A program made the translations under genes and the position numbers. A stretch of 64,000 bases of DNA from Arthrobacter crusticola (lineage in GTDB: Bacteria > Actinomycetota > Actinomycetes > Actinomycetales > Micrococcaceae): positions 1 through 64,000 of the forward strand of contig NZ_SMTK01000006.1 of the NCBI RefSeq assembly GCF_004357995.1, in the 5' to 3' direction. Each line of letters opens with the position of its first letter. The stretch's first letter is position 1. The notes beneath the pieces are model-generated. The model ran no database searches and had not been told where the DNA came from. It saw only the letters and a program-made list of their open reading frames with translations. Below are positions 34,963 to 59,448 of the stretch, piece by piece.

Positions 34963-35250
34963 GGCGCCAGTCTAGTGTTGCGGCGACTGCCGCCGGTGCT
35001 TCTCCGCGTGCGGCCGGCACCGCGCACCGCAAGCGGCGTAAGGGGTTAAACTGCTGGATCCTGGGCAGCCTGCTGCAACACGCATTGAACCACACCCCAC
35101 CTGGAGGGGCGATCACCGCGCACACGGCCGCAGCCCGCCGGTTGACCCGGTGTGCCGGACCCGGATAAGGATCTCGACGTTGGTCCGGACGTGCCCGGTC
35201 GGTCCGCTTCGGGCTGCAGGAGTACACCTTTTGCGGGGTGCCCATGACGG
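34963..35250. other. Intergenic region without recognisable gene
   Basis: The 288 bp between two minus-strand genes contain only short frames without family resemblance. The GGCTGGCG-type codon pattern of neighbouring genes is absent. It probably holds the promoter of the small membrane protein gene and the 3' end of the next transcript. No clear terminator hairpin was seen. Confidence 0.4.
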
Positions 35251-37122: not shown

Positions 37123-40100
37123 TTAAGCCTCGCCGTCGGTCCCAGGTGCCTCTGGTGCATCTAACCGGTCCAGAATGCGGGCAGCGAGCTCGATCGGCTC
37201 GTCGCAAAGCCCCATCCGGGCCAACTCCACCGCTGCAGCTGGGATTTGTAAAGTTGGGTCGGGGAAATTGCTTTCAGCAGCGACTGCCTTTGCACGTCTG
37301 ATACCATCGAGGATTTCCGAATCACTGGAGGACAGTCCGAAACCAATCAACGCCACCAAAGCTAAGAGTTTCGCGCTTGTTTCGGGATGTGTTGAGAGCC
37401 TACCGATACCAGTCATAGCCGATAGCTGCCAGTCCGAGAGGCTTCCTGGCCTAGCTTCACGGACCCGACTGTAGAGCTTCAGCAGTATCTCAAGAGGATT
37501 CATCTGCCACACCCACCAAGCTGCCCGTGTTAGAACCGCTGAAGCAGCGCGAGGAAGCCAAGCGTCTCTCTCGGCCAAATTCAGGAGGTCCTCATCAGCC
37601 AAGACCAGGTCCACAAGGAAGTCTTGGGCTAGCAGGAGGTTTGCGGATGTCGCAGTAAGGATGGCATCGTCATCTGTGTCTTTTGCAGACGACAGCTCAA
37701 GCGAGCGATCGCGGACGGCGTCAACCAGGGCTGGGGTTCCGAAGCTTGGGAGGTCAAGTGCACGTGCCAGCCGTCGGAGACCTAGGTCATCGGACCACAG
37801 GGCGAGAGCCTCATCATGTGCGAGTTGGATCGAGTGCGACCACGGGGAATGTTCCGCTTCATTTCCAACCTCATTGAGAAGAGTTACCTCGGCCTCATTT
37901 CCGACCTCCTCAAAAACGCTTACCTCGGTCACAACTCGGACATGCAGCTTTTGAGCGAAACCTTCCAAGGCTTCAGCCCGGCGCAACTGACGAACAAACT
38001 CTGCTTCAGGCAAATCTCTGAAAACAAGGGCAGATTGGTCCGGGTCCCAAGTCAAGGTTCCGGGGCTTCCGGCTCGGCCTCGAATTTCGGAAACCCCTCG
38101 ATGAACGTCGCCCATTGTTGCAGCCGTAACCTGAAGGGAAGCGAAGTGACCGCTGAGCCCGCGTACAGAAGCGTGGCCTGACAGTGTCAGGAGGGCTGCT
38201 GCATCCACAACGATCGATTGGCCTAATGCTGCGCGTGCGGCGGCGACCTCATGGGCGTGCTCGTCGTCGTCCGCTGATCCTGCAACCAGCACTCCAAAAG
38301 CTCGCTCTACTAGGATTGCGGCGTAGCTGTGATTGCGTAAACCGGCGAAGAGGCCAATAGGCACCGTGGCATTTCGGACGGCCCTGATTAGATCTCGAAG
38401 GTGACCTTCTTCTGCCGCGCGCTCCTTGAGGATTTCTGTAAGCTGACCGATAGCTTCTTCTGGCATACCTTGGAGCACCGTTACCCCAGTCTCGTCCCCG
38501 AATTCAGAAACGAGTTCCTGCATAGCCGCGAAAGCTTGTCGGTGCAGTTCCCCGGGGACGGCACCTTGCCCTAGACGGCGGCGAGTATCCAACGCATGGG
38601 CCTCGGATGCTGCCGGGTCCAGATTCTGGTCGACTGCGTAAGTGTTGCTGATAAGTTGTCCCAAGAGAGCGATGGAAAGCTTAGGGTCTGGGAAGCGACG
38701 GGCTAGCGCCAGCGCTTCTGAAGCCTTCGACTCATCCCACATTACTGTCGCGTTCGCGCGTGCCCATAGTGTTGCCTCTTCCTTTGTGCGGGCAACGGGC
38801 CGGTATTTGGCAATCAACTCGGCCGCCTGCGCTGCTTTGCCTTGGTTAAGTTGCGAAACGACGACACGCCATACTTCCGCGGGGCCAGGGGAACCGAATA
38901 GCTTTAGAGCTTCGACCAGATGTGTCTCCGCCACATCCCAGTTACCGCGGCCACCTTCTCTCTCAGCCAAGAATGTCAGGAGGCGCGCGCGTTCCACAGG
39001 GTGGGCCTCGCCCGTATTGGCCGCAAGACTAGCAGCGGCTTCGGCGTTCTCGTCCCCGGCGTCAACCAGGCACGAAGCTCTCCGGATTAGGAACCAGGGA
39101 TTGCCAGCAGCCGAGTAGAGCGCCTGGCAAGTTTCCGCCGCCTCAAGGAAGCGACGCGCTTCGCGCAGCTTCATGATCAGGTGTTCCCCAACCATGGGGT
39201 CCTCCAAAGCCAGCATCCGCAGAGCTGGCAATGCTCTATCCAAGTCGGCATAAGCGATGTGCGCCGCCTTAACAAAGTCCACCAACCACGAGGGCATGAT
39301 GGATTGGGCTACATAGGAGTCCAAGCTGCTGCTCTTATCCACGCCGAGGTCAGCTAGAGCAATACCAGCAATCACGATCTGTCGATAGTCCGCAGTATCC
39401 ACTGCTCTGTCGAACTCCGCTGACCACAACTCCCTTGCCTCCTCTGGCGATGGGTCTAAGAGCCCCACCCTCATCTTGAGGATTCGGTCACTGACCGTTT
39501 CACCTAGGCGTTGGGCTAGTTCAACCACCAAGTTTTGTCGTCCAAGAAAATAAGCCGCGTTCAGAGCGAAACGTAGCATTCTGGGATCTTCGGACTCCTC
39601 ATGAGTGGCAGACCCTATCGGCCCAGGCAAACAAATCTGCAATACCGTCTCGAACCGTCCCTGCAACATATAACACTGGGATAATGCTTCTAGAAGATCG
39701 GTGGTCGGACCCGCCCATCTGCGGCGCTGGGAAATAGCTGATTCCAAGTGTGTCGCTGCCTCGGACAGGTCATCCGTAGCAGGGCTGGAGCTTCCACGTC
39801 GGCGGAGAATTTCAGAACCCAATCGCAGTGAATGCGTGTTCCCAGAGTCGGACTGCAACTGCAGACGCCAGTGGCGAACAGCACCTTCCATGTCGCCTCT
39901 TCGCATGGCCTGTTCCGCGAGGAATGCCTGAACAGGAGAAGCTTTTCGGACTTCGTCGGAGTCTGCCAACAGGATGGGATCTATCGGCAGTGGGCCAGCG
40001 TTTTCGTCGGGATTAGCGAGTAGTGCTCGTCCAACGGCCACTAGCAGGGGTGCATCACCGGTTGCCGCAGCCTCGTCGAGGAGATCGCCGGATCGCTTAC

Positions 40101-40905
40101 GGTCAAATGCCATTATGTTCAAGGCCGCTGCCGCTAAGTTGCTCCCACAGTCTTGTACGGAAGCTCGGCCGGCCCGTTCAAATGCTTCAGCACTCACATC
40201 GTATTCTTCGTGTTGTGCAGCATAAGTAGCCACCACTGCCCATGCCCATGAGCCATTGCGTTCGATCCAGAGAGGCGACGCCGCCAGAAGTGACTGAGCG
40301 GTGCCACGCGGGTTTGCACGACCCTCGGCCAGATGGGAAGCCAATAGCGCTGCGTCTTGTCGTTCAGCAGGCGGGCGAGCCTGCAGCGCGCTGCAAACGG
40401 GCGGCGGCAGCTGCGTTAAGGCGTGCTCGAAACGCGCCTCGGCCAGAGTCTCAAGACCACTGGCGATGTGTCTCCATTCTTTACCTGCCGCTGACATCGG
40501 TTGCGATGAAGGCACCTCGACCTTGTAACCCTTGCCAGTCGATAGCACGGTCGTGCTGGAAATTCGCTGCCAATACACAGCGTTGTTCTTGAGATCGACG
40601 AGGACAACAACCACCGGCAGTGCGTGCCCCAGCCATAGCTTCGCCTTTTTCGCACTGAACGGGAACCACCAACCATTTGCTGACGGTTTCCTGAAGTAGG
40701 AGGGCCCACCCTTGATCTGGATGGCAATCAACCGACCTGTTCCAACCTCGACTGTCGGTTTGCCCTCCTCTTCGCTGAGTCGGACCTCCTCGACGTGAGC
40801 ATCAATACCTTGGTCGCTTATGTCCTGGGGTCGGAAGAACCATCCGATCTGCAGAGCCAACTTTTCAACGGCATTGACCGCTTTGCGATTCGTGAACTCG
40901 CTCAT
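37123..40905 (-). CDS. DUF4365 nuclease-like / helical-repeat / PIN-like domain protein
   Basis: The 1260-residue product begins with a DUF4365 domain (about 1-150). GWFFRPQDISDQGIDAHVEE (Asp35) and LIAIQIKGGPSYF (Gln63-x-Lys65) give the D...(E/Q)xK pattern of PD-(D/E)xK nuclease-like folds. Residues about 160-880 are Ala/Leu-rich helical hairpins of TPR type (for example AFLAEQAMRRGDMEGAVRHW). Near residue 897 SIVVDAAALLTLSGH starts what looks like a PIN domain: Asp901, then HDEALALWSDDLGLRRLARA (Asp1031, Glu1032, Asp1039, Asp1040) and FGTPALVDAVRDR. About 200 helical residues end the protein. GC is clearly below the chromosome. It diverges from the Toprim gene across 261 bp. A nuclease-armed defense or abortive-infection role is inferred. 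Confidence 0.75.
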   Translation of the reverse strand: MSEFTNRKAVNAVEKLALQIGWFFRPQDISDQGIDAHVEEVRLSEEEGKPTVEVGTGRLIAIQIKGGPSYFRKPSANGWWFPFSAKKAKLWLGHALPVVVVLVDLKNNAVYWQRISSTTVLSTGKGYKVEVPSSQPMSAAGKEWRHIASGLETLAEARFEHALTQLPPPVCSALQARPPAERQDAALLASHLAEGRANPRGTAQSLLAASPLWIERNGSWAWAVVATYAAQHEEYDVSAEAFERAGRASVQDCGSNLAAAALNIMAFDRKRSGDLLDEAAATGDAPLLVAVGRALLANPDENAGPLPIDPILLADSDEVRKASPVQAFLAEQAMRRGDMEGAVRHWRLQLQSDSGNTHSLRLGSEILRRRGSSSPATDDLSEAATHLESAISQRRRWAGPTTDLLEALSQCYMLQGRFETVLQICLPGPIGSATHEESEDPRMLRFALNAAYFLGRQNLVVELAQRLGETVSDRILKMRVGLLDPSPEEARELWSAEFDRAVDTADYRQIVIAGIALADLGVDKSSSLDSYVAQSIMPSWLVDFVKAAHIAYADLDRALPALRMLALEDPMVGEHLIMKLREARRFLEAAETCQALYSAAGNPWFLIRRASCLVDAGDENAEAAASLAANTGEAHPVERARLLTFLAEREGGRGNWDVAETHLVEALKLFGSPGPAEVWRVVVSQLNQGKAAQAAELIAKYRPVARTKEEATLWARANATVMWDESKASEALALARRFPDPKLSIALLGQLISNTYAVDQNLDPAASEAHALDTRRRLGQGAVPGELHRQAFAAMQELVSEFGDETGVTVLQGMPEEAIGQLTEILKERAAEEGHLRDLIRAVRNATVPIGLFAGLRNHSYAAILVERAFGVLVAGSADDDEHAHEVAAARAALGQSIVVDAAALLTLSGHASVRGLSGHFASLQVTAATMGDVHRGVSEIRGRAGSPGTLTWDPDQSALVFRDLPEAEFVRQLRRAEALEGFAQKLHVRVVTEVSVFEEVGNEAEVTLLNEVGNEAEHSPWSHSIQLAHDEALALWSDDLGLRRLARALDLPSFGTPALVDAVRDRSLELSSAKDTDDDAILTATSANLLLAQDFLVDLVLADEDLLNLAERDAWLPRAASAVLTRAAWWVWQMNPLEILLKLYSRVREARPGSLSDWQLSAMTGIGRLSTHPETSAKLLALVALIGFGLSSSDSEILDGIRRAKAVAAESNFPDPTLQIPAAAVELARMGLCDEPIELAARILDRLDAPEAPGTDGEA
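37856..37927 (-). repeat. Imperfect 36-bp tandem duplication inside the DUF4365/PIN gene
   Basis: Two adjacent 36-bp units (37856-37891 and 37892-37927) agree at about three quarters of positions. They encode two copies of a 12-residue unit containing EVGNEAE. The duplication keeps frame and inserts an acidic loop before the HDEALALWSDD motif of the PIN-like domain. Confidence 0.75.
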
Positions 40906-41166
40906 CCATCCCCCAAATCAAGGAAGCCAGCATCCAATCTGACTGCAAACATCTAGAAGCTTATAGCGGATCATGCGAATGCCAGCCCTGCGTCTTGTCG
41001 GGCTCCGTCTAGCTGAGGGTGGTTCCCGATCGCCTTTGGGAAGCTCCTGAGTCATGGCAGTTGATGCCAGCAAGCCTGCCGATTCATTGACTTGCTGTTG
41101 TTACTGTTGGCAAGCATGTCCCTGTGGTTTCGTGGGATGGGACGCAAAGAGTGAACGGGAGGCAGA
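40906..41166. promoter_or_regulatory. Divergent promoter region between the DUF4365/PIN and Toprim genes
   Basis: The two large genes start back to back with 261 bp between them, so their promoters lie here and may be co-regulated. No clear operator palindrome was seen. The Toprim gene has a GGGAGG ribosome binding site; the DUF4365 gene start (ATG at 40905) is preceded on its strand by GGGGGATG. Confidence 0.5.
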
Positions 41167-42342
41167 GTGGCAGCATATTCGTGGGTTTGCATCGGCGAGG
41201 ATCAGACTGTCCCAGTTTCGGGATTCGTCCGAGAAGGTTACAGCCTCCAGCACGCTGCGTTGTTTTTGGACAACGAACGGGTTAGTGAGGGCCTCTACTT
41301 GTCGAGTGCCAAGACAATCCGCGACCGCCTGCAACTGCTTGGATTCGGTCGAGCCCGCGCGGACGCAGTGGTTCTCCAAGGATGGGCAACACGGCACCAC
41401 GTCGAGAATAAGAACCTGGCTGATGATCCGGAGAAGCTCATAGCCGACTTCGTCATTGATCTTGAATCGGAAGGAGGGGCTCCTTCAGTTTACGAAAATC
41501 CATCGAAACAACGCCTTCGCAGCTCTTGGGGCTACATATGGGGCGAGGAACGCAGTCAACTTCGTTACTTGGTTGACAGATTGCCGGACGAGCACCCGGT
41601 CGCCTTCGACCTTAGAGAAGTTATCGGGAGAGGACACGCTGCCGCCTCTGAAACGCTGTGTGCGGATGCGCGGGCTGAGGAAATCACCGAGGCCTCCGGC
41701 ACCATGCCGACCATCACGCTGACGGAGGGGTCTTCGGATGCCAGCATATTGGAAAAGGCCCTCGAGATACTACGACCTGATCTGGTTGGATTCTTGACGT
41801 TCATGGATTACTCGCACAAACCTGACGGCGGCGTGGGAGCCGTCACGAATGGGCTAAAGGCGTTCTCTGCCGCTGGAGTCGGCAACAGAATAATAGGGCT
41901 CTACGACAACGACACAGCCGGCCGTCAGGGGCTCCTATCGCTTCGGAAGTCGCCGTTACGACCGCATATGCGGGGTACTGTTCTTCCTGAACTCGAGCTC
42001 GCCCGTAGCTACCCCACTTATGGACCTGACGGCCTGAGCTGTACTGACATCAATGGGCGAGCAGTATCGGTGGAACTCTTCCTCGGACGAGATGTTCTGA
42101 CTATTGACGGTGAACTTTCGCCCGTACAGTGGACTCAGTACGTCAAGCCCATGAATTCCTACCAAGGCGAGATTTCGCAGAAGGGCCTCATCCAAGAGCG
42201 CTTTTACGAAAAGGTAAAGACGTTCAGCGCTGCAAGTAGACATGAAAAGTCGGACGACTGGCAGGACCTTGAACATCTCATCGACTACATCGTCCAACTC
42301 ATGAGCACTGAGGATAACAGCCAGAAGGAGCCTCAGAATTGA
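41167..42342 (+). CDS. HEPN/Toprim-associated domain protein with Toprim fold
   Basis: The 391-residue product has an N-terminal region of about 170 residues of the HEPN/Toprim-associated kind (AAYSWVCIGEDQTVPVSGF, FVIDLESEGGAPSVY). A Toprim domain follows: TITLTEGSSDASILEKALEI carries the catalytic Glu near residue 184, and IIGLYDNDTAGRQGLLSL the DxD near 245. This metal-binding fold occurs in topoisomerases, primases and OLD-type nucleases. The rest (about 300-391) is acidic and helical. GTG start with GGGAGG upstream. It diverges from the DUF4365-PIN gene and precedes a wrecked restriction gene, so it probably acts in defense against foreign nucleic acid. No ATPase domain is present. Confidence 0.75.
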   Translation: MAAYSWVCIGEDQTVPVSGFVREGYSLQHAALFLDNERVSEGLYLSSAKTIRDRLQLLGFGRARADAVVLQGWATRHHVENKNLADDPEKLIADFVIDLESEGGAPSVYENPSKQRLRSSWGYIWGEERSQLRYLVDRLPDEHPVAFDLREVIGRGHAAASETLCADARAEEITEASGTMPTITLTEGSSDASILEKALEILRPDLVGFLTFMDYSHKPDGGVGAVTNGLKAFSAAGVGNRIIGLYDNDTAGRQGLLSLRKSPLRPHMRGTVLPELELARSYPTYGPDGLSCTDINGRAVSVELFLGRDVLTIDGELSPVQWTQYVKPMNSYQGEISQKGLIQERFYEKVKTFSAASRHEKSDDWQDLEHLIDYIVQLMSTEDNSQKEPQN

Positions 42343-43427: not shown

Positions 43428-44864
43428 CTATCCCAGCGCCTCACATAGGGGGAGCAGATCTTGGAGCCGCTCCACTATCCGTTTCTGCTCCGCCAGGGGC
43501 GGGACCGGAATAAGGTAGTCCTTCAAGAACGACGCTCCCACCCGTTGTTGTCCCGCTGTCCCTGTCATTGCCCTGACGCCATCGCGGATGAAGTCCGCCG
43601 TTTTGAAGAAGAACAGCAGGTACCTCATGTCGATTGTTTGGTCAATCCCACGAAGGACGTGAAATTCCGTTGTCCCCGCGCCGAGGCCCGATTCAAGGCC
43701 GTTGAGGACAGCAGACTTACGGTTCTGGAAACAGGGCGTGATCTTCGCGAGGACTAGGTCTCCGTCTTGGAAGTGCGTATATCCCGAGCGAACCTCACCC
43801 CATCGTCGGATCTCGAACTCGTATTCACTGCCATAACCGTCCTGCAGGCGGGCCATGGGCAAAAAACCGACCTTGACGTCGTCCGAAGCAGTGTTGCGGG
43901 GACTCAGGATACAGATCTGGCCAACTCGGGCCCACGCCCAACTCTTCGGAACCTGAAACGGGATCTCGCTCTCGAGGATTGGTGGCAACGGCTTCTCTTG
44001 CTTGAGCTGCCCTGCAGCAACCATCTGCGCTTTCTTTACATCGATTTGCGCCAACAGCTCGCCCGCATCGCCATCAGGAGGCAGTTGCTGGGTCAAACGG
44101 CCCGAAACTGCGTCTTGCAGTATTGCGTTCCGCATATCATCCGGAAAACGCTTCCTAAGGGCATCAAGCTCAATTTCGTTGGAGGCGAGCTCATTTACTT
44201 GCGGCAGAAGCTGCTCGAGCCGTTCAACAATACGCTCCTGCTCCGCAAGGGGCGGCAACGGCATCATTCTGGGCATCATATTCGTCATTGACACGTGCAC
44301 CATCGTGCTTCCAGTCGTCGAATTACGGATGGAATCTACGTCGCGCATCAGCATGTAGTAAACAAACTTTTTCACCAGCGGGCCGTACTTAACGTTCCAA
44401 ATATGATAGTGAAAAATAGCCCGTCCAGCATCCCACAAGTGCGGGCCGAACGACGCGGACCAGCAGTAGAGTAAGTCACCAGAGTCGCAGTATTTCTCGT
44501 CCTCAAGCTCCAGGTCCGAGTAATACCAGTGCGCGTTTGTGAAGAGGTTCCCGACGCGGAGCACTTTGTACTTTCCGTCCGACAGCAACTCGTCCTGCTT
44601 ATATGCGCGACCATTGATGAACCGTAGGACGTCACCAAACCGCACCCATACCCAGTTGGCCGGGATGTCGAACGGAATCTCCTCCTCAGAGATTGGAGGC
44701 AGCAGCTTGTCTTTCTTGCGCTCTCCCGACGCAACCAGCGCTGCTCTCTCCGCACGAATGCGCGCGAGTAGTTCCCGGGCATCCCCATCCGAAGGCAGTT
44801 GATTCGTCAACAGGCCTGACATTGCATCCTGCAGTATTGACTTGCGCAGCTTGTCGGCGATCAC
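43428..44864 (-). CDS. hsdS: Type I restriction-modification specificity subunit
   Basis: The 478-residue product has two target recognition domains. Each is introduced by the same element: IPFDIPANWVWVRFGDVLRF in the first half and IPFQVPKSWAWARVGQICIL in the second. The repeated helical spacers (KLRKSILQDAMSGLLTNQLP and DMRNAILQDAVSGRLTQQLP) and the two PLAEQERIVERLEQLLP-type segments give the usual pseudo-twofold symmetry. HsdS directs the methylase and nuclease to a bipartite DNA site. It starts with GTG overlapping the hsdM stop by 4 bp. It appears intact. Confidence 0.94.
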   Translation of the reverse strand: MIADKLRKSILQDAMSGLLTNQLPSDGDARELLARIRAERAALVASGERKKDKLLPPISEEEIPFDIPANWVWVRFGDVLRFINGRAYKQDELLSDGKYKVLRVGNLFTNAHWYYSDLELEDEKYCDSGDLLYCWSASFGPHLWDAGRAIFHYHIWNVKYGPLVKKFVYYMLMRDVDSIRNSTTGSTMVHVSMTNMMPRMMPLPPLAEQERIVERLEQLLPQVNELASNEIELDALRKRFPDDMRNAILQDAVSGRLTQQLPPDGDAGELLAQIDVKKAQMVAAGQLKQEKPLPPILESEIPFQVPKSWAWARVGQICILSPRNTASDDVKVGFLPMARLQDGYGSEYEFEIRRWGEVRSGYTHFQDGDLVLAKITPCFQNRKSAVLNGLESGLGAGTTEFHVLRGIDQTIDMRYLLFFFKTADFIRDGVRAMTGTAGQQRVGASFLKDYLIPVPPLAEQKRIVERLQDLLPLCEALG

Positions 44865-46336
44865 TTGCCCGCCCCAAGCATTTGCTCGATGAGCATCAGT
44901 CGCTCGTCAATTCGCACGTTGAGCTCGTCCCGGCGGCGCTTGTACTGGTCGATGGTCTCTTCGGGCGAGAGCACCTCCTCCTCATCGCGCGGATACCCAC
45001 ACAGGTCCAGGTTGTAACTGCGCTCGGCGAGCTCGGCCGCGGTGAACGACTGCGCCGTGAACGAACCGGTCTTGGGGTTTGTGAGCTCAACTCGGTCGTC
45101 CCACCAACTCATGCAACCTTCAAAGTGTTCAAGCAGCATCGGCTTCGTCTTCGAGAAGTGTTTGTACCCGTCAGGCTTGTCGACGCGATAGAACCAAGTG
45201 CGCTCGGTTGGGCCCGTATTGTCGAAGAACAAAATGTTCGTTGCGATCGATGTGTAAGGTGCAAACACACTCATTGGCATCCGGACAATAGTGTGCAGGT
45301 TGAACTCCTCGACGAGCTTGCGTTTGATCGCACGCTTCGGCCCATCAGCGCCGAATAGGAATCCGTCAGGTAGGATAAGCGCTGCCCGCCCGTCGCGTTT
45401 AAGGCGGTACATCGCCAGCACGACGAACAGATCCGCAGTCTCGCCGCTGCGCAGCTCAGCTGGGAAGTTCATTTTCAGATTTTCCTGCTCAGTGCCGCCA
45501 TAGGGCGGATTCATAAGCACGACTTCGAATCGGTCCTGGTCCTTGAACTGGCGGACGTTCCGCTCGAGTGAGTTGCCATGAAACAGCTGCGGGCTATCAA
45601 CGTCGTGGATCAAGAGATTCGTCACAGCAAGCAGGTACGGGAACTGCTTCTTCTCGATGCCGAACACGCTCTTTGCGTAAAGCTCGCGGTCTCCAACAGA
45701 GCTCACCTGAGGCTCGAGGTAGTTGAGTGAAGATGTAAGGAACCCGCCTGTGCCTGCTGCGAAGTCTGCGATACGCTCACCGAGCTGCGGCGCGAGCATC
45801 TGAGCCATGAAGTCGGTCACCGCACGTGGCGTGTAGAACTCGCCGGCGTTGCCCGCCCCCTGCAGGCTCCGCAGGATCGTTTCGTATATCTCTCCGAACG
45901 CGTGCCGCTCCTTATAGTCGTCGAACTGGATCGCGTCGATCTCATTGATAATTTGACGCAGAAGCACGCCGTCTTTCATGTACTGGTTGCTGTCCTCGAA
46001 TACTGCCCGGACAATGCTCTGCCGCAAAGGCGTACGCGAGTCGAGCTGAAGGTTCTTCAACTTCGGAAACAGAGTGACGTTGACGAAGTCGAGTAGCCCC
46101 TGGCCCGTGAGCGCAGCACCATCCTTCGTGTCCACAGCCCAGTTCCGCCAGCGGAGCGGCTCAGGGATGATCGAGTGGAACGTTTCGTCGTGGAACTCCC
46201 AGTCCTCCTCCTTGACGTCATAGACCTTGAGGAAGAGGATCCACACCATCTGCTCAATACGCTGGGCATCACCGTTGATGCCGCTATCGCCGCGCATGAT
46301 GTTTTGGATCTTTTTGACGAATCCGCCGATTACCAC
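44861..46336 (-). CDS. hsdM: Type I restriction-modification DNA adenine methyltransferase subunit
   Basis: The 491-residue product begins with the HsdM helical domain (FVKKIQNIMRGDSGINGDAQ). The N6-adenine methylase core follows: GAGNAGEFYTPRAVTDFMAQM, the SAM motif IADFAAGTGGFLTSSLNYL, and catalytic VVLMNPPYGGTEQ near residue 276. The C terminus pairs with HsdS. It methylates host sites and is the partner for restriction by HsdR. GTG start follows GGAGTACGA. It lies 15 bp after hsdR and is coupled to hsdS. Confidence 0.95.
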   Translation of the reverse strand: MVIGGFVKKIQNIMRGDSGINGDAQRIEQMVWILFLKVYDVKEEDWEFHDETFHSIIPEPLRWRNWAVDTKDGAALTGQGLLDFVNVTLFPKLKNLQLDSRTPLRQSIVRAVFEDSNQYMKDGVLLRQIINEIDAIQFDDYKERHAFGEIYETILRSLQGAGNAGEFYTPRAVTDFMAQMLAPQLGERIADFAAGTGGFLTSSLNYLEPQVSSVGDRELYAKSVFGIEKKQFPYLLAVTNLLIHDVDSPQLFHGNSLERNVRQFKDQDRFEVVLMNPPYGGTEQENLKMNFPAELRSGETADLFVVLAMYRLKRDGRAALILPDGFLFGADGPKRAIKRKLVEEFNLHTIVRMPMSVFAPYTSIATNILFFDNTGPTERTWFYRVDKPDGYKHFSKTKPMLLEHFEGCMSWWDDRVELTNPKTGSFTAQSFTAAELAERSYNLDLCGYPRDEEEVLSPEETIDQYKRRRDELNVRIDERLMLIEQMLGAGK

Positions 46337-46351
46337 TCGTACTCCTGTCGA

Positions 46352-48691
46352 CTATGCGGCGAGGCCATAAATCGCACGTTCGAGCTCGCGCACCGCCTCA
46401 AGATACTCCTGCTTGCCGCCGAACATCCGGGCGATCCGGGCAGGGCTACCTAGTCTATCGAACGGCGCGTTGCCGAGGATGCGAGTATCCTTGAGGTCCG
46501 TGATCCCCTCGTTCATGTACTTGTCGAGGAGTCCCTCAAGCACGGCACGACATACATCTGAGTACTTGTAGAGGTACCCCTGCTTTTTCACGCGGTCGAT
46601 TCGCTCCCGCTTCGTGACAGGTTTTTGGTCATACGCAATGTGAAGTATCAGGTCGAAGGGATCGAGCTCAGCACTTGCTTTCCCCGCGTCGTCTCGAAGC
46701 GCATCAAGGAGTACACCTTGCTCCTCAAGCGCACTGATGATTGCCTGCTTTTTCTCGGCGTCGCGCCAGGCGGAAATGAAGTGCTCAAGCGTTGCGAACT
46801 CTCCGAGGATGTTTCGGCGGCTGTAATCGACGATGCTCTCAACCGTGAGCCTGCCGTCCTGGTCATAGTACTGGACCCGCTCGTTGAGGATAGTGACCTC
46901 CACTCCATTGACGAACACCTTCGTTCGCTTGTCGCGCGAGTCATCGAGGCTGTCCTGCGCCTCATTCGAACTCGACCCGCGCCGATTTGCTTCCGGCGGG
47001 GTCTCGTCATCTTCCTCGTATACGACGATTGGATCCCCGTCAAACGCAGGATCGGCAAATAACCGCGAGACTCCGCGGAAGTCCATGACTGTGAAGTACA
47101 TCTTCCCGGCATCTGGATACAGACGGGTCCCTCGGCCGATGATTTGCTTAAACTCGGTCATCGAGTTGATGTTCGCATCTAGCACGATGAGCTGCACCGT
47201 CTTCGTGTCTACACCTGTCGTCATTAGCTTCGAGGTAGTCACGACGGTTGGATACGACTCATTAACATCAATGAAGTTGTCGAGCTGATTCTTGCCTTCT
47301 TGGTTGTCACCGGTGATGCGCATCACGTAGCGAGGGTTTTGGGCCGTTAGATCTCTGTTTGCGTTCACCATGGCCTGTCGCATTCGCTCAGCGTGCTCGA
47401 TGTCCACACAGAAGATGATGGTCTTGCTCAGCCGCCCGTGATGGTTGAGCCAGGCCGTCACTCGCTCGGCCACTCGCTGAGTCCGTTCGTCGATAACGAG
47501 GGTCTTGTCGAAATCGAGTGAGTTGTATTCGCGGTCCTCAATCTCATTCCCATCGATGTCGGTCTGGCCTCGCTCAGGGCGCCAGCCTTCGAGGTCCTTA
47601 TCAAGACCAACGCGGAATACTTTGTATGGCGCAAGGAATCCGTCGTCGATACCCTGTTTCAGGCTGTAGGTGTAGATAGGATCTCCAAAATAGCTTGAGT
47701 TGCTTATGTCTTGGTTCTCCTTGGGTGTGGCCGTCATACCGATGTGCACCGCCCCTGTGAAGTAATCGAGCACACGGCGCCACCGCGAGTTAGCCTTTGC
47801 ACTCCCCCGGTGGCACTCGTCGACGATGATCAGGTCGAAGAACTCCGGCTTGAAGTCGCGGAACGGCTCTGTGCCCTCGTCGCCGACAAGCTGGTGGTAG
47901 AGGCTCATATAGATCTCGTAGGAACTATCCAGTTCCTGACTGCGAACCTTAGTCATCACCTTCTCGAACGGTTTAAAGTCTTGCTGCATAGTCTGATCGA
48001 TGAGGATATTCCGGTCTGCCAGATACAGCACCCTTTTGAATTGGCCGGCGCCCTTCATTAGTCGCCAGATTATCTGGAACGCTGTGTAGGTCTTCCCGGT
48101 GCCTGTCGCCATAACGAGCAGTGCTCGACTTTCTCCCTTCGAGATCGATTCGACGGTGCGGTCAATGGCTACGCGCTGATAGTACCGTGGCGCCTTCCCT
48201 GAGAAAGGGTCGAAATAGTAAGGTTCTGTAATTGTCTCCTGTTGTTCCGGACTTAGACCCTTGCCGGCAATGTAGCGTTGCCAAAGTTCATCATTTGTTG
48301 GAAATTCGTGCATTGCAAGCATTCGCTCAGTGCCAGTGAAGAAGTCGTGTTCAAGAAAACCATGGCCATTCGACGAGTATGCAAAAGGCACATCGAGCGC
48401 GACCGCATACTCGATCGCTTGCTGCATGCCGTCGCCGACGCTATGACGCTCATCCTTCGCCTCCACGACCGCGAGCGGCTGTTGGGCCTCGTGGTGCACC
48501 AGCAAGTAATCGGCCATTTTTCGCGCCCCGCGCTTCACCGTCTCACCGCGCACGATGACCCGGCCGTCGGTGAAGGTATGTTCCATAAAGATTTGGCCCT
48601 GACCCCAACCTGCCTGCTCCATAATCGCAGGCGTGATCAGACGCAGCTTGGTCGTTTCCTCGTTAAGTGCCACTACCGCCTGCTTCCCCAT
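46352..48691 (-). CDS. hsdR: Type I restriction endonuclease motor subunit
   Basis: The 779-residue product has an N-terminal nuclease domain (ADYLLVHHEAQQPLAVVEAK, with the ExK motif near 78-80, then MQQAIEYAVALDVPFAYSSN). A superfamily 2 translocase follows: Walker A LLVMATGTGKTYTAFQ near 196, DECHRGSAKANSRW near 293, HIGMTATPKENQD, QIIGRGTRLYPDAGK. A C-terminal HsdM-contact region (YKYSDVCRAVLEGLLDKYMN) ends it. It cuts unmethylated DNA after translocation. I use the ATG at 48691; a TTG two codons upstream is possible. It is first in the operon hsdR-hsdM-hsdS and seems intact. Confidence 0.94.
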   Translation of the reverse strand: MGKQAVVALNEETTKLRLITPAIMEQAGWGQGQIFMEHTFTDGRVIVRGETVKRGARKMADYLLVHHEAQQPLAVVEAKDERHSVGDGMQQAIEYAVALDVPFAYSSNGHGFLEHDFFTGTERMLAMHEFPTNDELWQRYIAGKGLSPEQQETITEPYYFDPFSGKAPRYYQRVAIDRTVESISKGESRALLVMATGTGKTYTAFQIIWRLMKGAGQFKRVLYLADRNILIDQTMQQDFKPFEKVMTKVRSQELDSSYEIYMSLYHQLVGDEGTEPFRDFKPEFFDLIIVDECHRGSAKANSRWRRVLDYFTGAVHIGMTATPKENQDISNSSYFGDPIYTYSLKQGIDDGFLAPYKVFRVGLDKDLEGWRPERGQTDIDGNEIEDREYNSLDFDKTLVIDERTQRVAERVTAWLNHHGRLSKTIIFCVDIEHAERMRQAMVNANRDLTAQNPRYVMRITGDNQEGKNQLDNFIDVNESYPTVVTTSKLMTTGVDTKTVQLIVLDANINSMTEFKQIIGRGTRLYPDAGKMYFTVMDFRGVSRLFADPAFDGDPIVVYEEDDETPPEANRRGSSSNEAQDSLDDSRDKRTKVFVNGVEVTILNERVQYYDQDGRLTVESIVDYSRRNILGEFATLEHFISAWRDAEKKQAIISALEEQGVLLDALRDDAGKASAELDPFDLILHIAYDQKPVTKRERIDRVKKQGYLYKYSDVCRAVLEGLLDKYMNEGITDLKDTRILGNAPFDRLGSPARIARMFGGKQEYLEAVRELERAIYGLAA

Positions 48692-49235
48692 TGGCAACGG
48701 TTTCTATTGCAACAGTTTATGGGAGCAAGCCGGCTGCCTGCCTCGCGACTCGGCTGTTCGCGATGGAGCGAGCCGGACACCTGGGCTCAGGTGAAATAGT
48801 CAAAGCCCCACGTATTGGGGAGCGCCTGAGGCCGGCCCTTCAGCGTTAGCCAGGAGGGACTGGACACCATGGAGAAAACTTGCCGGGTAGTCTGGCGCAG
48901 GGTGCTCATCCATCAATCAGGCCGGGGCATGTCGAAGCACGGGCCAGTGGTTGCACAAGACATTTTCACCTGTTCTATGTTTACCTGCTCAGCCGTCTTT
49001 AAGCACCCTCATGGCTGTGCCCGGCTCCTACGTCACCTCGGCTTCCTGTCGGGCGATTCCTTGGAGGTAAGGAGTCTCGCCGTGATGCGCTGGTCCAGCC
49101 CGGGCGGCCTCCGTCAGTCGTTGAGCAGGATCGGACCCACACGGCACGCCCCAATTTCCGCTTCGAAATGCATGCAAATGGATGGTTCATCATTTCCCCT
49201 CCTTGACGTCGGTCAGGTCATTCATCGGCGGAAGG
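48692..49235. other. Region without recognisable gene between hsdR and the GIY-YIG gene
   Basis: The 544 bp contain only short frames. The longest, about 140 codons on the plus strand from 48869, has no family resemblance and an unconvincing composition. The hsdR promoter must lie near its left end. Decayed cargo is possible, but no ancestral product could be pieced together here. Confidence 0.4.
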
Positions 49236-49937
49236 CTAAGTCGTGTCAGCGCCGGAATACGGGACGAGTACCCAATCCACGATCTTTTTGATTTCATCGG
49301 GGCTGGACAAAAACCATTCGGCGCCAGGGGCATCAACTAGCTGCTGGCCTCTGCAGTGAAGGATGGCATGCAGGCCCTGTTCGAGCCGGCGGGGCGTGTC
49401 CGTCCGGCGCACATAGGCGACCACCGGAGCCTCAGGCATGGCCGTGCCCTGCTGATTGAACACCCGGATGCAGGAATTGCCGGTGGCGGTCATTCCTACT
49501 TTCACCGGCCAGCGTGCCTCCTGCTTTCGGACGGCCAGCTCCTTGTAGGTCGGGAAATAGTAGACATAAATGCACCCAGACCCCCGGCCCTCACTGGCTC
49601 CCTGCGGGGCCACTTCAAATTCCCCTGCTGCCAGAACACCTGCGCCGAACTGCTGCTCGGCCGGGATGTTTGCGCCTGCCCGCCAGCGCCACCAACCGGG
49701 TTTGCCCGCAGGCTCAAGCAACCCCGTACGCGCCAGTATGAGCACAGCTTTCTTGATTAGGGTCCGAATGTCCGTCTCGGTCGGCGCCCCGCCCATTGCC
49801 AGGTGGTACTCCTGTATCTTTCCAAGCACGGAACGCCGGAACACCGGCTCCTGCACAAGGTTCCTCGCAAGGTCTGCCATTATTGATGGTGTTAATCGCC
49901 TGCCCTCGTGTCTGTATCTCAGCGGCCCGTCACCCAC
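49236..49937 (-). CDS. GIY-YIG nuclease family protein
   Basis: The 233-residue product has an N-terminal helical region of about 100 residues. A GIY-YIG domain of the T5orf172/MUG113 style follows: GCIYVYYFPTYKELAVRKQE (first tyrosine strand), WPVKVGMTATGNSCIRVFNQ (the KVGxT and Arg motifs) and RRLEQGLHAILHCRGQQL with the catalytic Glu. It ends in AEWFLSSPDEIKKIVDWV, the usual EWF finish of this group. GIY-YIG nucleases make single cuts in DNA. The GTG at 49937 lies 21 bp after the HicB-like stop, so the genes are probably co-transcribed. The target is unknown; defense or mobile-element function is inferred. Confidence 0.8.
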   Translation of the reverse strand: MGDGPLRYRHEGRRLTPSIMADLARNLVQEPVFRRSVLGKIQEYHLAMGGAPTETDIRTLIKKAVLILARTGLLEPAGKPGWWRWRAGANIPAEQQFGAGVLAAGEFEVAPQGASEGRGSGCIYVYYFPTYKELAVRKQEARWPVKVGMTATGNSCIRVFNQQGTAMPEAPVVAYVRRTDTPRRLEQGLHAILHCRGQQLVDAPGAEWFLSSPDEIKKIVDWVLVPYSGADTT

Positions 49938-53310: not shown

Positions 53311-53739
53311 TCAGTGCCTTTGCTGTCGGTGTCGACGAATGGAGACGGCTCTGCTCGCTTCGGCGCTCGGGTTGTCTGCCAGATAGACCGCAAAAAGTGT
53401 CATTGCGTATCGGTCGAGCTGACGGTTAAGTTCGCTGACCTGTTGCTTGAGCTCGACAATTTTTTGCTTGTCTTGATACTTTTCTTCGGCGGCGGGGCTC
53501 CGCCGGCTGGTGCCAAGTGGCGCGATCAGTCGGTTGAGTTTCTCGTTTAGCCGGTGCGGATTGTCCGATTCGGCGGCGTCTTGCCTGAACGCCCGAGCCA
53601 CAGCGTCATGGCCAAGCCCGCTGAGGATTTCAATCTGCCGCTTTGTCCGCGGCGCGCTTTGGTCGGCAGCAAGGGCATCAATGGCTTTCGAAACACGGGT
53701 CATCACGTCGTCGGAAACGCGCTTTCGACTTGCGGGCAT
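53311..53739 (-). CDS. Small coiled-coil protein of the recombinase operon (GinD / Tn554 TnpC-like, DUF6262)
   Basis: The 142-residue product starts with a helix-turn-helix-like region (RVSKAIDALAADQSAPRTKR, QIEILSGLGHDAVARAFRQD). It continues with a coiled coil (EKYQDKQKIVELKQQVSELN) and a basic tail. Proteins of this size and layout follow the recombinases in GInt islands (ginD) and Tn554 (tnpC); in GInts all four genes are needed for recombination. Its start overlaps the stop of the upstream recombinase gene, so it is the last gene of a tightly coupled operon. Confidence 0.8.
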   Translation of the reverse strand: MPASRKRVSDDVMTRVSKAIDALAADQSAPRTKRQIEILSGLGHDAVARAFRQDAAESDNPHRLNEKLNRLIAPLGTSRRSPAAEEKYQDKQKIVELKQQVSELNRQLDRYAMTLFAVYLADNPSAEASRAVSIRRHRQQRH

Positions 53740-55793
53740 TACTCCTCCATCGGGTTGGACGAGGACGGGCCTTGACCTAGGTCACGGAGCGCTCGAGAGA
53801 GGTTGGTTCGGTTGCGCTGCATCTGCTCCCGCATGTCCGGGTTTCCCTTTTCCCGGTCAAGGTAGGCGTCAATACGGGCGATACCATCCCGTAGGACAGG
53901 AGCATGGGCTTGCGTGAGCAGTGCGTTAGAGCAGTCCAATCCGATGCAGATGTGATCGCTCAGGTGAGGTCGATCCGTTCCGCAGCCACTGGTGGCCGCA
54001 TTCCACATGCAGTCATTGGTGAGACCGAAGTGGAGGCGATCGGCGATGGTGTCAGCGATGCGGTCTGCACGAGACGAATCGGCGACAACCTGGGCGCGGA
54101 AAGAAGTGATATGCCGTGCTGCCGGTCCGGCGACGGGGGTTGGGTCCGCAATGAGTGCGGCGGCCTGCTCGCGCAGGATCCCTTTCCGGACAGAGTCAAG
54201 GTGTTGAACAGCCTGCTGTTGGCCGTCACTGAAATAACCGCTGGTCATGCGCCATGCCGAATGGCCCAATTGAATTCCCAGACCAAGTTCTGCTCCGGGT
54301 TTGGTCGTGGAGTAAACCGCGAACGAGCGGCGCAGGGTGACGGCGTTGATGCTGTCAGAATCTGTTGTGTCGATCGGTCGGAGGCCAAGACCGGAGCCGC
54401 GCCCGGGCCGTGTGATCGGATCACCGTTAACGAACGATATGAGGCGAGGGAGGTCCCGGTCGCCACTGTAGGGGCCAGCGTTGGTCGCCATACGCGCAAA
54501 GAGGTAGTCGGAGTGTTGACTAACTTCAGCGAGTACCTCGCATGCGCGAATCACCGGTTGCGGGGCCCACCACGATCGTGCTTCTCCCTCCAGTCTGTCA
54601 TTGCCTTTGTGCTGAATGCTCGCCAGAGCGGGTAAACCGTCGCGCGTGGTGACTGAGTCCCGCCGCAGCTCTTGGATCTCCCCGTCCCGCATACCACTCA
54701 GACAGGCGATGACGACGTAGCAGGCGGCACGCAGCACACCAACGAAACGCTCGGTCTCACCAAGGCCGATTTCGCCAACCCACGGGGTCCGGGTACCGTC
54801 TCTTTGGGTAACGAGAACTGAAGGCTCAATCAGCCCACCAAAGAGCCTGCGGGCCGGGTCCGCTGCCGCGGCAGCCAAAAGGTCCACTGCCTCCTGACAA
54901 TAGTTGTGGTTGGACCGCCTCAGAATGGTGTCGCTGATTGGCAACAGCCGGCACAACAGCCTCGTGTTAGGTTCACCCCGCGTACCGGGGCTGCGGCCGA
55001 AGCCGGTATGCAGCGGTATTTTACCGCTAGCCGCATCCCATTCCCTGATGATTTTCAGGGCATTCGCGCCCCCTGGCCCGACCGGGTCAGGCGGCAAATC
55101 ACGTCGGGCGCGGAAGGCCGTAATGATGTCCGGCGACCACTGATCGACGATGGCCCACGAGGCTGCGAGAAGCGGCGCCCATAGACTCCATATCAGCGGA
55201 GCGGCCTCGACCTCGGTGCGCCACCCATCCTGACCGGCAATCTCCGCAGCGGAACGGGCACCCCAAGGCTGAAAAGATAACCCCTCGGACAAGACGGCTT
55301 GAAAGTCGCGGAGCAGCTTGAGTACCTCCATGTAACCGCGGACCGTGCCAGGGGCTAAGCCCCGGCCGTTTTCGCGGTGTTGTCCAGCTTGGAGGTCGAC
55401 CAAGAAACCGTCGCAGTCCCGCTGCTCCCAAATCCCGAATGACGGCAGGGACCGGGCGGTGGCCCATCGTGCGAGAGTACGCAATTTTAGGTAGGTGCCG
55501 TACACAGCTGACGTTGGCGCGGGCCCGTCTCGACGGATGACTCCGGCGTTGATGACGGCCGGATGGTCGGGTTGTGCGAGTACCATCATCAGGCCCGCGG
55601 CGTCAGAGCGGTAGCCGTCGGGAATTTCGGCTAAGTCGATCCTGCGCTCGGCTTGAGACTTCCGTGTAATGAGTGGGCCCATGTCCCAAACGGTTTGGCC
55701 GTAACGCGGTCCGTCCGGCTCAGACGCCCAGACCGGTTCGTCGGGGGCGAAGATGCCGAGATTTGGGGAACGTGCGGGGTTAGGCATCGTCAT
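53739..55793 (-). CDS. Third tyrosine-recombinase-like protein of the trio (GinC-like)
   Basis: The 684-residue product has a long N-terminal region with a core-binding-like part (YLKLRTLARWATARSLPSFG). The catalytic domain has ACLSGMRDGEIQELRRDSV (first Arg), LRRSFAVYSTTKPGAELGLG (second Arg) and IQLGHSAWRMTSGYFSDG (His and probable nucleophile Tyr). A Cys/His-rich motif follows (CMWNAATSGCG, then LDCSNALLTQAHAPVL), matching one in the middle protein. It overlaps the preceding gene by 14 bp and the small fourth gene by a base. Together they should integrate and excise the island. Confidence 0.88.
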   Translation of the reverse strand: MTMPNPARSPNLGIFAPDEPVWASEPDGPRYGQTVWDMGPLITRKSQAERRIDLAEIPDGYRSDAAGLMMVLAQPDHPAVINAGVIRRDGPAPTSAVYGTYLKLRTLARWATARSLPSFGIWEQRDCDGFLVDLQAGQHRENGRGLAPGTVRGYMEVLKLLRDFQAVLSEGLSFQPWGARSAAEIAGQDGWRTEVEAAPLIWSLWAPLLAASWAIVDQWSPDIITAFRARRDLPPDPVGPGGANALKIIREWDAASGKIPLHTGFGRSPGTRGEPNTRLLCRLLPISDTILRRSNHNYCQEAVDLLAAAAADPARRLFGGLIEPSVLVTQRDGTRTPWVGEIGLGETERFVGVLRAACYVVIACLSGMRDGEIQELRRDSVTTRDGLPALASIQHKGNDRLEGEARSWWAPQPVIRACEVLAEVSQHSDYLFARMATNAGPYSGDRDLPRLISFVNGDPITRPGRGSGLGLRPIDTTDSDSINAVTLRRSFAVYSTTKPGAELGLGIQLGHSAWRMTSGYFSDGQQQAVQHLDSVRKGILREQAAALIADPTPVAGPAARHITSFRAQVVADSSRADRIADTIADRLHFGLTNDCMWNAATSGCGTDRPHLSDHICIGLDCSNALLTQAHAPVLRDGIARIDAYLDREKGNPDMREQMQRNRTNLSRALRDLGQGPSSSNPMEE

Positions 55794-57483
55794 GAATACC
55801 CCGCATGTCGTTGCGTATGCCGAGATCGAGCGGCACCGATGCGATCTGCTGGCGGGCTGCGCTGACGGTATCGGGAGGGAACGCGGGCAGAATTATCCGG
55901 GTGATGATCTCGTAGATCGGCTTCCAGTGGGAAGCCCACACCTGCGGATCGGCGGCACGGGCCGGGTCGGCGACTTCGGCAATAGCCAGCGCGGCCGGCA
56001 GGTGGCGCTGGGTGATAAGGGCGTTGCCGCAACCAAAACAGGTTCCGGTCATTGATCTGGTGCAAATGGTGTCGGGGGCGTCGAATGGACTGTTCTTGGG
56101 ATCGCGGCACGCGGTCTGGGGCCCGTCAAGGTCCCCCTGCAGCAGGGCCCTCGCGGTGGCCGCGTCGAGTCCGGAGGTTTCTTGGCCATTGGCGAGAATC
56201 TGCTCTGTCTGGGGGGTCACCACGGTGGGTCCGGTCAAAGCGGCCTCGAACATGGCGTCGGTACTCTCGATCAGATGGCGTCCCGCTTCAGCTCGAAGAG
56301 TTCCACTGTTGGTGTAGTGCCGGAAGAATACTTCAGCCCCGTGCCTCCGCCCACTGTCGAGGTAGCGGCGGGGGTTGGCCAGCACCTCGTCGGCCACGAC
56401 GGTTTTCCGGAACCGTGCCCAAACCTGGGGTTCGCTGACCTTCACGCCCGTCCCATCAATCCAACGGCGAAGGCCCAAAGGTTTGGTGTTCCACGTAGGC
56501 TCGGTGATCCGACCGTTCACCTGCTCTCGCTGCCAAAGAGCGGGCAGGCCACTGCGCTCACGCGTCCCCGTGGTAAGCCGGATGATTGCTGTCAGCGCCC
56601 GGTGAACTGCGTGGTCGTGCCGTGTGTAGACGTCTTGGTAGGTTTCCCTCGCTCGGTTCTTGGTCCACGTGATCCCGTACTGTTCCACCAGATTCCGTTC
56701 GGCGAGCCAGGCGAGCCTGGCAGCGGGCGTCATGCCCTCCACTGCCGGGTCATGCTCAGCCGAGGCTGTAGCCTTGATGTCGTCCACCTGAAGGGCACGG
56801 ATGACCTCCGGTGGCTCTCCGGTGGCCAGACTCAGCAGAACGTGGGCAGCGACTAGGACCGGCGGAGGCGGGGCAGGCCCCGGTTTCCCATCTGCCCAGA
56901 GGCGGAGGTGGGAATAAACAAGACGGTGGGCGTGTGACCGCATCCCGCGGGCCTCACCCGGGGAGAAGGCGGGCAGTCCCTCGCCGCGACGCTGGCGGAG
57001 CCTCGTCCCGCGCTCGAGCCGGCGCACGACTTCCGGGTGCAGCACGTGAGGGGTGTCGTCGCGGATGCGTCTCAAGAGGGCGAAGAAGTAGAGTGCGTGC
57101 CGGTAGTAGGTGTCGGTCTTTGACTCCTGGTGCGCGGCGAGGAGGGACATTTCCCATCCGTCGAGGTGCCGGCGGCGCAGATCGCCGAGTGCAAAGGACT
57201 CAGAGCCTGCCGCATGAAGCTGCTCGCCGACATGGGTGAGGAATCTGCGTACTGATACCAGCAATTGCCCCATCTCGCATCCGTTCTCCTGCGCCACCTC
57301 TAGCCACTTGTCACCGAGTTCCGCAGCGAGCACGGGCAGGAGGAAGTCCGCCGGGATGAGGGACAACCTGACGGTGCGCCCATAGTCACGCCGCGTATAG
57401 ATGCGGGAGTCCTCGACCGAGAGGGCGGGTGCCGAAGGCACACCGGAGGGGCTTTCCGGGGTGCTGTATGAGCCTCGCGTCAT
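55780..57483 (-). CDS. Second tyrosine-recombinase-like protein of the trio (GinB-like)
   Basis: The 567-residue product has a SAM-like N-terminal region (GQLLVSVRRFLTHVGEQLHA). In its catalytic domain box I reads LATGEPPEVIRALQVDDI, where active recombinases have GxR, so the first catalytic Arg seems missing. Later FRKTVVADEVL, RRHGAEVFFRHYTNSG supply an Arg, His and Tyr. A C-terminal Cys motif CFGCGNALITQRHLPAALAI resembles that of the third protein. It may be a structural or regulatory partner rather than a full catalyst. ATGA overlap with the first recombinase gene. Confidence 0.85.
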   Translation of the reverse strand: MTRGSYSTPESPSGVPSAPALSVEDSRIYTRRDYGRTVRLSLIPADFLLPVLAAELGDKWLEVAQENGCEMGQLLVSVRRFLTHVGEQLHAAGSESFALGDLRRRHLDGWEMSLLAAHQESKTDTYYRHALYFFALLRRIRDDTPHVLHPEVVRRLERGTRLRQRRGEGLPAFSPGEARGMRSHAHRLVYSHLRLWADGKPGPAPPPPVLVAAHVLLSLATGEPPEVIRALQVDDIKATASAEHDPAVEGMTPAARLAWLAERNLVEQYGITWTKNRARETYQDVYTRHDHAVHRALTAIIRLTTGTRERSGLPALWQREQVNGRITEPTWNTKPLGLRRWIDGTGVKVSEPQVWARFRKTVVADEVLANPRRYLDSGRRHGAEVFFRHYTNSGTLRAEAGRHLIESTDAMFEAALTGPTVVTPQTEQILANGQETSGLDAATARALLQGDLDGPQTACRDPKNSPFDAPDTICTRSMTGTCFGCGNALITQRHLPAALAIAEVADPARAADPQVWASHWKPIYEIITRIILPAFPPDTVSAARQQIASVPLDLGIRNDMRGIHDDA

Positions 57484-59081: not shown

Positions 59082-59448
59082 GGTGGAGATGGCGGGAATT
59101 GAACCCGCGTCCGATGCAGTGTTGTCAGGGCTTCTCCGGGCGCAGTTTGCGTCGGTTTTTCTCAGCTCCAGCCATCGTGCAAACAAGTGGCTGCCGAGCT
59201 CAGTTGTATAAGAGTCCCCCTGGTTCCTACAACAAAAACCAGGAGCAGTGGCCCTCTAAATGACGCCAGGATCCGGGGCGAGAGCAAACCCGGTCTGACG
59301 GACTAGCTAGGCTGCTTAGGCAGCGAGAGCGAAGTCAGTGCGCTTAGATTCGGCACTTATTGTTTTACAGAGAGCGTTAACGAGATAACCCTGTATCCTC
59401 GGCCCGCTTCCCCTGTCGCGACTAACATCGTCGAAACCTGTCATCCCC
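59082..59448 (-). ncRNA. ssrA: Transfer-messenger RNA (tmRNA)
   Basis: Read on the minus strand, the 5' end GGGGATGACAGG and 3' end CATCTCCACC form the acceptor stem, and GGGTTCAATTCCCGCC is the T arm. The tag frame at 59354-59316 starts with GCC and encodes AESKRTDFALAA then TAA, a typical actinobacterial degradation tag. Length is about 367 nt. tmRNA frees stalled ribosomes together with SmpB, whose gene lies about 500 bp upstream. The base after CC is G, so CCA is not encoded in the present sequence; the island begins exactly there. Pseudoknot pairings are plausible but were not folded. Confidence 0.93.

Follow-up and report, generated by a model that had tools for sequence, protein, structure and literature searches.

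The window analyzed here, a 64,000-nucleotide stretch of Arthrobacter crusticola DNA (RefSeq assembly GCF_004357995.1, contig NZ_SMTK01000006.1, positions 1 to 64,000), carries two divergent genes, one encoding a large protein with an N-terminal DUF4365 domain, a repeat-like middle and a PIN domain, and the other a Toprim protein. The large gene, a predicted stand-alone defence gene of the tetratricopeptide repeat (TPR)-PIN type, runs from an ATG start over 37123..40905 on the minus strand (1260 amino acids, aa) and was delimited from its open reading frame (ORF), Pfam matches and an alignment with six homologues from the same phylum. The Toprim gene, described from its motifs and a structure model, runs from a GTG start over 41167..42342 on the plus strand (391 aa), and an intergenic region of 261 bp (40906..41166) separates the two starts. 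Both ORFs were found in the ORF list at the coordinates given by an earlier sequence-only reading of this DNA, which had taken them for the two components of a candidate undescribed defence system. Because long homologues of both proteins occur in other genomes, both ORFs are, on this comparison, more than chance. No NCBIfam family scored above cut-off for either protein.

At the N-terminus of the large protein, residues 7-138 (40492..40887, minus strand) matched the DUF4365 domain, of the PD-(D/E)xK type, above the Pfam cut-off (E 3.9e-25), and residues 4-118 matched the N-terminal restriction endonuclease (REase) part of the PADLOC model Aga_REase (E 3.2e-16). In line with the PD-(D/E)xK-like start proposed earlier, with D35 and Q63-x-K65, residues G33, D35, Q63 and K65 were invariant in six of six aligned DUF4365 stretches (the window, four plasmid records and one same-genus genome). 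The middle of the protein, with approximate limits at residues 180 and 790 (38536..40368, minus strand), is repeat-like and of the TPR type, as judged by sub-threshold TPR and ARM matches, by profile alignment and by TPR matches above cut-off at equivalent places in Pseudomonadota homologues. TPR models reached the cut-off in five Pseudomonadota members and in two further members (L090 and L119), while the first six same-phylum homologues gave sub-threshold scores only; of the roughly 700 residues of helical repeats claimed previously, a repeat-like middle is supported, with TPR scores that are sub-threshold in the window protein itself.

Between the repeats and the PIN domain, the same-phylum alignment revealed a conserved segment (approximately residues 840-870; 38296..38388, minus strand) that is possibly helix-turn-helix (HTH)-like, the model HTH_upst_double_PIN having given weak matches in three homologues only. 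Residues 899-1049 (37759..38211, minus strand) were assigned to PF20698 (E 1e-21; 78.1 bits vs. a cut-off of 27.8), which Pfam names 'PIN domain associated with the TPR-GreAB-C-PIN system'. D901, D933, D1039 and D1040 were invariant in all seven same-phylum full-length proteins, and D901 and D1040 in all 13 PIN regions compared (these seven plus six from Pseudomonadota), with an acid at position 886 in 12 of the 13. The C-terminal PIN-like acidic set proposed before was thus borne out for D901 and D1039/D1040 but not for D1031/E1032, which were not conserved in the PIN alignments and were ruled out as PIN acids. Compared with solved structures, the PIN alignment matched 3ix7 (TTHA0540), which we take to be a PIN protein, with an E value of 0.0038 over 38 columns. 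The C-terminal tail (residues 1066-1260; 37126..37710, minus strand) could be aligned with the same-phylum homologues and matched no named domain.

The Toprim protein is probably of the HEPN/Toprim-NTD1 type and belongs to a widespread family, with 45 genome-contig loci in many phyla and 48 plasmid records. Its Toprim core (approximately residues 182-272; 41710..41982, plus strand) contains E187-G-x-x-D191 and D247-N-D249; E187, G188, D191, D247 and D249 did not vary across the 39 sequences aligned and N248 was nearly invariant, in agreement with the previous recognition of a Toprim protein divergent from the large gene. A structure model built from the 39 sequences (mean predicted local distance difference test, pLDDT, of 85.3) placed strands at 182-185 and 242-246, just before the motifs, in an alternating strand-helix region. 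Foldseek searches with this model gave no match below E 0.001 in the PDB or BFVD, a phage DnaG Toprim ranking third in the viral library list (E 0.068), and a comparison of the alignment with solved structures returned nothing relevant; therefore, the Toprim domain is predicted from motifs, strand-helix topology and family label. Pfam Toprim models matched only three entries among nine members (best E 0.0067).

OLD-family Toprim nucleases such as Gabija GajA carry Toprim acidic motifs, as the window Toprim protein does. However, GajA ranked 36th in the Foldseek list with a non-significant E value of 0.4, and the window protein has no ATPase domain and no significant fold match to solved structures. 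As for the 'HEPN' part of the earlier label, the N-terminal domain HEPN_Toprim_N (PF18871) was matched by nine of nine members of the family alignment (A3) at E up to 0.1 (best 3.3e-16) and scored 19.9 bits vs. a cut-off of 25 in the window protein, so that the shared N-terminal domain was retained at this sub-threshold level, but no HEPN nuclease family was matched in Pfam and a HEPN nuclease was ruled out. HEPN/Toprim-NTD1 has been described as fused to HEPN families, Toprim or an Mrr-like REase (Biol Direct 2013, PMC3710099); the window protein resembles these in its putative, sub-threshold N-terminal domain, a single predicted Toprim domain and defence-related contexts, and differs from them in lacking a HEPN nuclease fusion.

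The sequence-only reading had joined the two genes into one system, made of a large sensor-nuclease and, as second nuclease, the Toprim protein, and they are indeed adjacent, divergently transcribed, closely spaced and carried on the same genomic island. Nevertheless, no TPR-PIN gene was detected in any of 54 Toprim loci (eight plasmid loci, 45 genome contigs, some of them short so that flanks were cut, and L011; best E 0.16). As a control, leave-one-out TPR-PIN models recovered seven of seven same-phylum members at E 4.4e-19 or better; they clearly found six of the eight Pseudomonadota members and missed L092 and L095, so that distant members could escape. Among 42 genomes with the Toprim gene, none had PF20698 above cut-off, and one gave a sub-threshold match. 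From the opposite side, the Toprim protein was absent from all six other same-phylum TPR-PIN genomes in an alignment search that matched the own genome as control, and from 11 further TPR-PIN genomes (three of the same order, eight Pseudomonadota) in a search without its own positive control. Of 19 PIN loci, including two sub-threshold members (L097 and L098), none had a Toprim gene in its flanks, and in eight annotated plasmid regions no large TPR-PIN gene adjoined the Toprim gene. Beside the Toprim family itself, no gene family recurred in more than four loci, and one of the two four-locus clusters consisted of three Flavobacterium loci of the same gene layout plus the HsdM of the window. 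The earlier reading had itself named homologues that never lie side by side as evidence against the pairing, and this was the outcome in the samples searched (54 loci, 42 genomes and 17 other TPR-PIN genomes), which largely refutes a two-component system. We regard such a system as very unlikely, and the tempting but unsupported two-gene combination drops off the list of candidates.

The large protein on its own has a published counterpart. A conflict system made of TPRs, a GreA/B-C domain and a PIN domain, with swappable N-terminal effectors including REases, was reported in 2021 (eLife, PMC8195603), its genes being mostly stand-alone with few conserved neighbours. There, the GreA/B-C domain was predicted to engage RNA polymerase, the PIN domain to cut the transcript and the N-terminal effector to serve as a fallback. 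The window protein shares with this system the PF20698 PIN domain and a swappable N-terminal effector, together with a repeat-like region whose TPR matches are sub-threshold, and its gene may likewise stand alone, the Toprim gene being no partner in the samples searched and the other neighbours having been judged by eye. Its own effector, DUF4365, is not named in the main text of that paper. Since the TPR-PIN core was published in 2021 and the fusion of HEPN/Toprim-NTD1 to Toprim already in 2013, the description of the locus as an undescribed system could not be maintained.

In contrast to the published system, the window protein and nine other members from the same phylum (L009, L010, L018-L021 and L117-L119) lack the GreA/B-C domain. 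The Pfam model GreA_GreB (PF01272) gave no match in the window protein at E up to 1; it matched none of these ten same-phylum members and three of eight from Pseudomonadota (L089, L091 and L095; E 1e-5 to 1.1e-3, all below cut-off). A family-specific GreA/B-C model was then built from six Pseudomonadota members (alignment A6, from which L090 and L092 were excluded, both being tested afterwards) and assessed by leave-one-out. Each of the six was recovered where expected (E 6.6e-22, 2.2e-23, 1.2e-16, 3e-14, 1.2e-19 and 0.0015), and the model also detected L090 (E 6.3e-13) but not L092, bringing the total to seven of eight. Against the ten same-phylum proteins it produced chance-level matches only, the best (E 0.1) lying inside the repeats of L020. 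Further, an hhalign comparison aligned the two groups through the repeats at least to the start of the PIN domain (probability 99.8, E 3.3e-29), with a consensus gap of approximately 72 columns at the place of GreA/B-C; the window protein has just some 21 additional residues there. Hence the window protein lacks a defining feature of the published system, the GreA/B-C domain, yet is clearly a relative, and its mode of action may be similar. The absence of this domain from ten of ten same-phylum TPR-PIN proteins with differing N-termini would be the somewhat new part of these results. The remaining Pseudomonadota PF20698 protein, L092 (6052-9354, 1100 aa), has no detectable GreA/B-C domain and little similarity to the repeat models, and represents a further variant.

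PF20698 was found above cut-off in 3 of 396 genomes drawn from the phylum, Actinomycetota, 5 of 394 from the class and 5 of 396 from the order, each count including the own genome and the class and order draws sharing one genome (G763), and in 8 of 249 genomes of Pseudomonadota, the phylum of the Burkholderiaceae genome G858. Four matches below cut-off (three in the Pseudomonadota draw and one in a Toprim-bearing genome) were not counted as members, and a sub-threshold match in a 459-aa frame of G537 was not used as one. Among 97 near genomes, a full-length match was obtained in the own genome only, two others matching the DUF4365 part; likewise, the matches in two phage records and 27 plasmid records were all confined to DUF4365. 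A peptide-pattern search for close relatives of the large protein found none in viral contigs, and none of its 49 pattern matches in genome contigs was confirmed as such. Two other proteins came to light here. In a same-genus genome, a DUF4365 protein of 941 aa that weakly matches HEAT repeats (L012:9162-11984) represents a different DUF4365-repeat fusion, and a 1267-aa protein at a sub-threshold PF20698 match (L097:1077-4880) is possibly a distant relative of the TPR-PIN family; the genome of the latter also has the Toprim family, on a different contig.

Within the same phylum, the DUF4365 effector occurred in one of the ten members, the window protein. Another member, from the same order (L118:9290-13906), carries an N-terminal winged helix and a nucleoside phosphorylase-like PNP_UDP_1 domain (E 1.6e-13); the remaining eight gave no Pfam effector match at the N-terminus, and weak Mrr-type REase matches were seen at this end of the Pseudomonadota members L090, L093, L094 and L095. 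Because the N-termini differ among homologues that have the same core, the N-terminal part is, by this comparison, swapped on a constant repeat-PIN core. This modularity bears on the idea that the large protein is a host regulator of RNA turnover or transcription with an inactive DUF4365 domain, for which one could invoke the link to transcription made by the GreA/B-C domain of its published relatives (PMC8195603) and the work of PIN domains in RNA processing (PMC3710099). A host regulator is difficult to square with differing N-terminal domains, with intact D35, Q63 and K65 residues, with the patchy distribution of the protein and its family described above, or with an island location, and we consider it unlikely.

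The island itself was recognized from base composition and from comparison with genomes of the same genus. G+C content drops from 0.63-0.74 to the left of approximately 36 kb to 0.55-0.64 in most of the 37-59 kb interval, and is 0.64-0.68 near the right end of the window. A transfer-messenger RNA (tmRNA) gene (59082-59448, minus strand) adjoins the right end of the island. Window positions 34976 and 59082 lie 63 bp apart in L113, the one nearly empty site among the three same-genus genomes compared; the same flanks enclose about 2.5 kb of other sequence in L112, and L111 gave a match for the right flank only, from 59079. On the basis of these flanks, the segment from 34.98 to 59.08 kb looks like a lower-GC insertion of about 24 kb next to the tmRNA gene, on its 3' side. 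No direct repeat of at least 18 bases, nor any convincing shorter one, was identified as an attachment repeat. A type I restriction-modification (R-M) operon (HsdS, HsdM and HsdR; 43428..48697, minus strand), detected with Pfam and PADLOC, lies in the same island, which corroborates the previous description of an island with restriction genes. The large gene and the Toprim gene most likely stand next to each other as passengers of the same island, independent of one another and travelling with the R-M operon.

The large protein has two domains of nuclease type and its gene lies on an integrated island, so the gene might instead serve to stabilize that island through a toxin-like (addiction) effect and not to counter phages. 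No recurring antitoxin-like partner was seen beside its homologues when the ORF lists were inspected by eye, without scoring, and this explanation appears rather improbable.

Taken together, the DUF4365 and PF20698 domains, the swapped N-termini, the conserved acids, the lack of co-occurrence with Toprim and the island with R-M genes lead us to propose that the product of the large gene is probably a sensor-nuclease that acts against phages as a single protein and belongs to a branch without GreA/B-C, and that the Toprim gene beside it is independent. A defence role is inferred here, as are every activity, trigger and outcome ascribed to the protein. The C-terminal repeat region and PIN domain would form the constant module and the N-terminal DUF4365 domain the swappable effector. 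In such a scheme, the repeat region would keep the protein off until an infection-specific partner is met, the PIN domain would then cut RNA or gate activation, and the DUF4365 nuclease would degrade DNA, so that the phage is blocked or the cell killed. Since no GreA/B-C domain is recognisable in the large protein or in its relatives from the same phylum, they cannot find their target by docking on RNA polymerase through such a domain. The Toprim gene would be a separate nuclease-type gene from another mostly solitary family, sharing the island as cargo with the large gene and the type I R-M operon.

Two precedents are in line with a one-protein sensor-nuclease. DUF4365-APAZ, acting with a short prokaryotic Argonaute, degrades DNA once activated (PMC10810196); DUF4365 is common to both, acting there, and proposed to act here, as an effector DNase that a sensor turns on, but the sensor is the Argonaute pair in that system and would be the repeat-PIN module of the same chain in the window protein. 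Defence by DS-3 (PMC13092281), a PIN system consisting of one protein, depends on the catalytic residues; it is likewise a single protein with a PIN domain, although, by its published description, that domain is split between the N and C terminus, unlike that of the window protein, and defence was tested for DS-3 and is predicted here.

Several points weigh against the proposed sensor-nuclease. Active PIN nucleases typically have more conserved acids than two, and since only D901 and D1040 are universal in the 13 PIN regions, some members may have a PIN domain of low or no activity. Assignment of the repeat region relied on weak matches and on homologues, and a single-sequence model of the C-terminal 467 residues was unusable (mean pLDDT 47.9). 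The GreA/B-C comparison comprises ten same-phylum and eight Pseudomonadota sequences, and loss of this domain is, to judge from L092, not confined to one phylum. Finally, the open-licence papers searched contained no activity or phage data on the large protein or the PF20698 family.

The published idea that GreA/B-C docks on the RNA polymerase used by the phage becomes testable with a branch that lacks the domain: if its members defend, GreA/B-C docking would be dispensable and the sensing would lie with the repeat-PIN part. More speculatively, and with somewhat less than even confidence, the branch in the phylum of the window could be viewed as a modular one-protein immune receptor in which the repeat-PIN part senses something other than RNA polymerase and killing domains (a DUF4365 DNase, a nucleoside phosphorylase-like domain and unassigned domains) are plugged in, much as NLR-type receptors swap effectors.

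Two further features were observed inside the island. An ORF at 49236-49937, near the type I R-M operon, matched T5orf172 and MUG113, which are of the GIY-YIG type. At the tmRNA end, three long overlapping ORFs (684, 567 and 508 aa) follow one another in tandem over 53739-59006; the last gave a sub-threshold phage-integrase match (2.3e-5) and the first one of E 0.22 only, and the three are possibly a recombinase trio.

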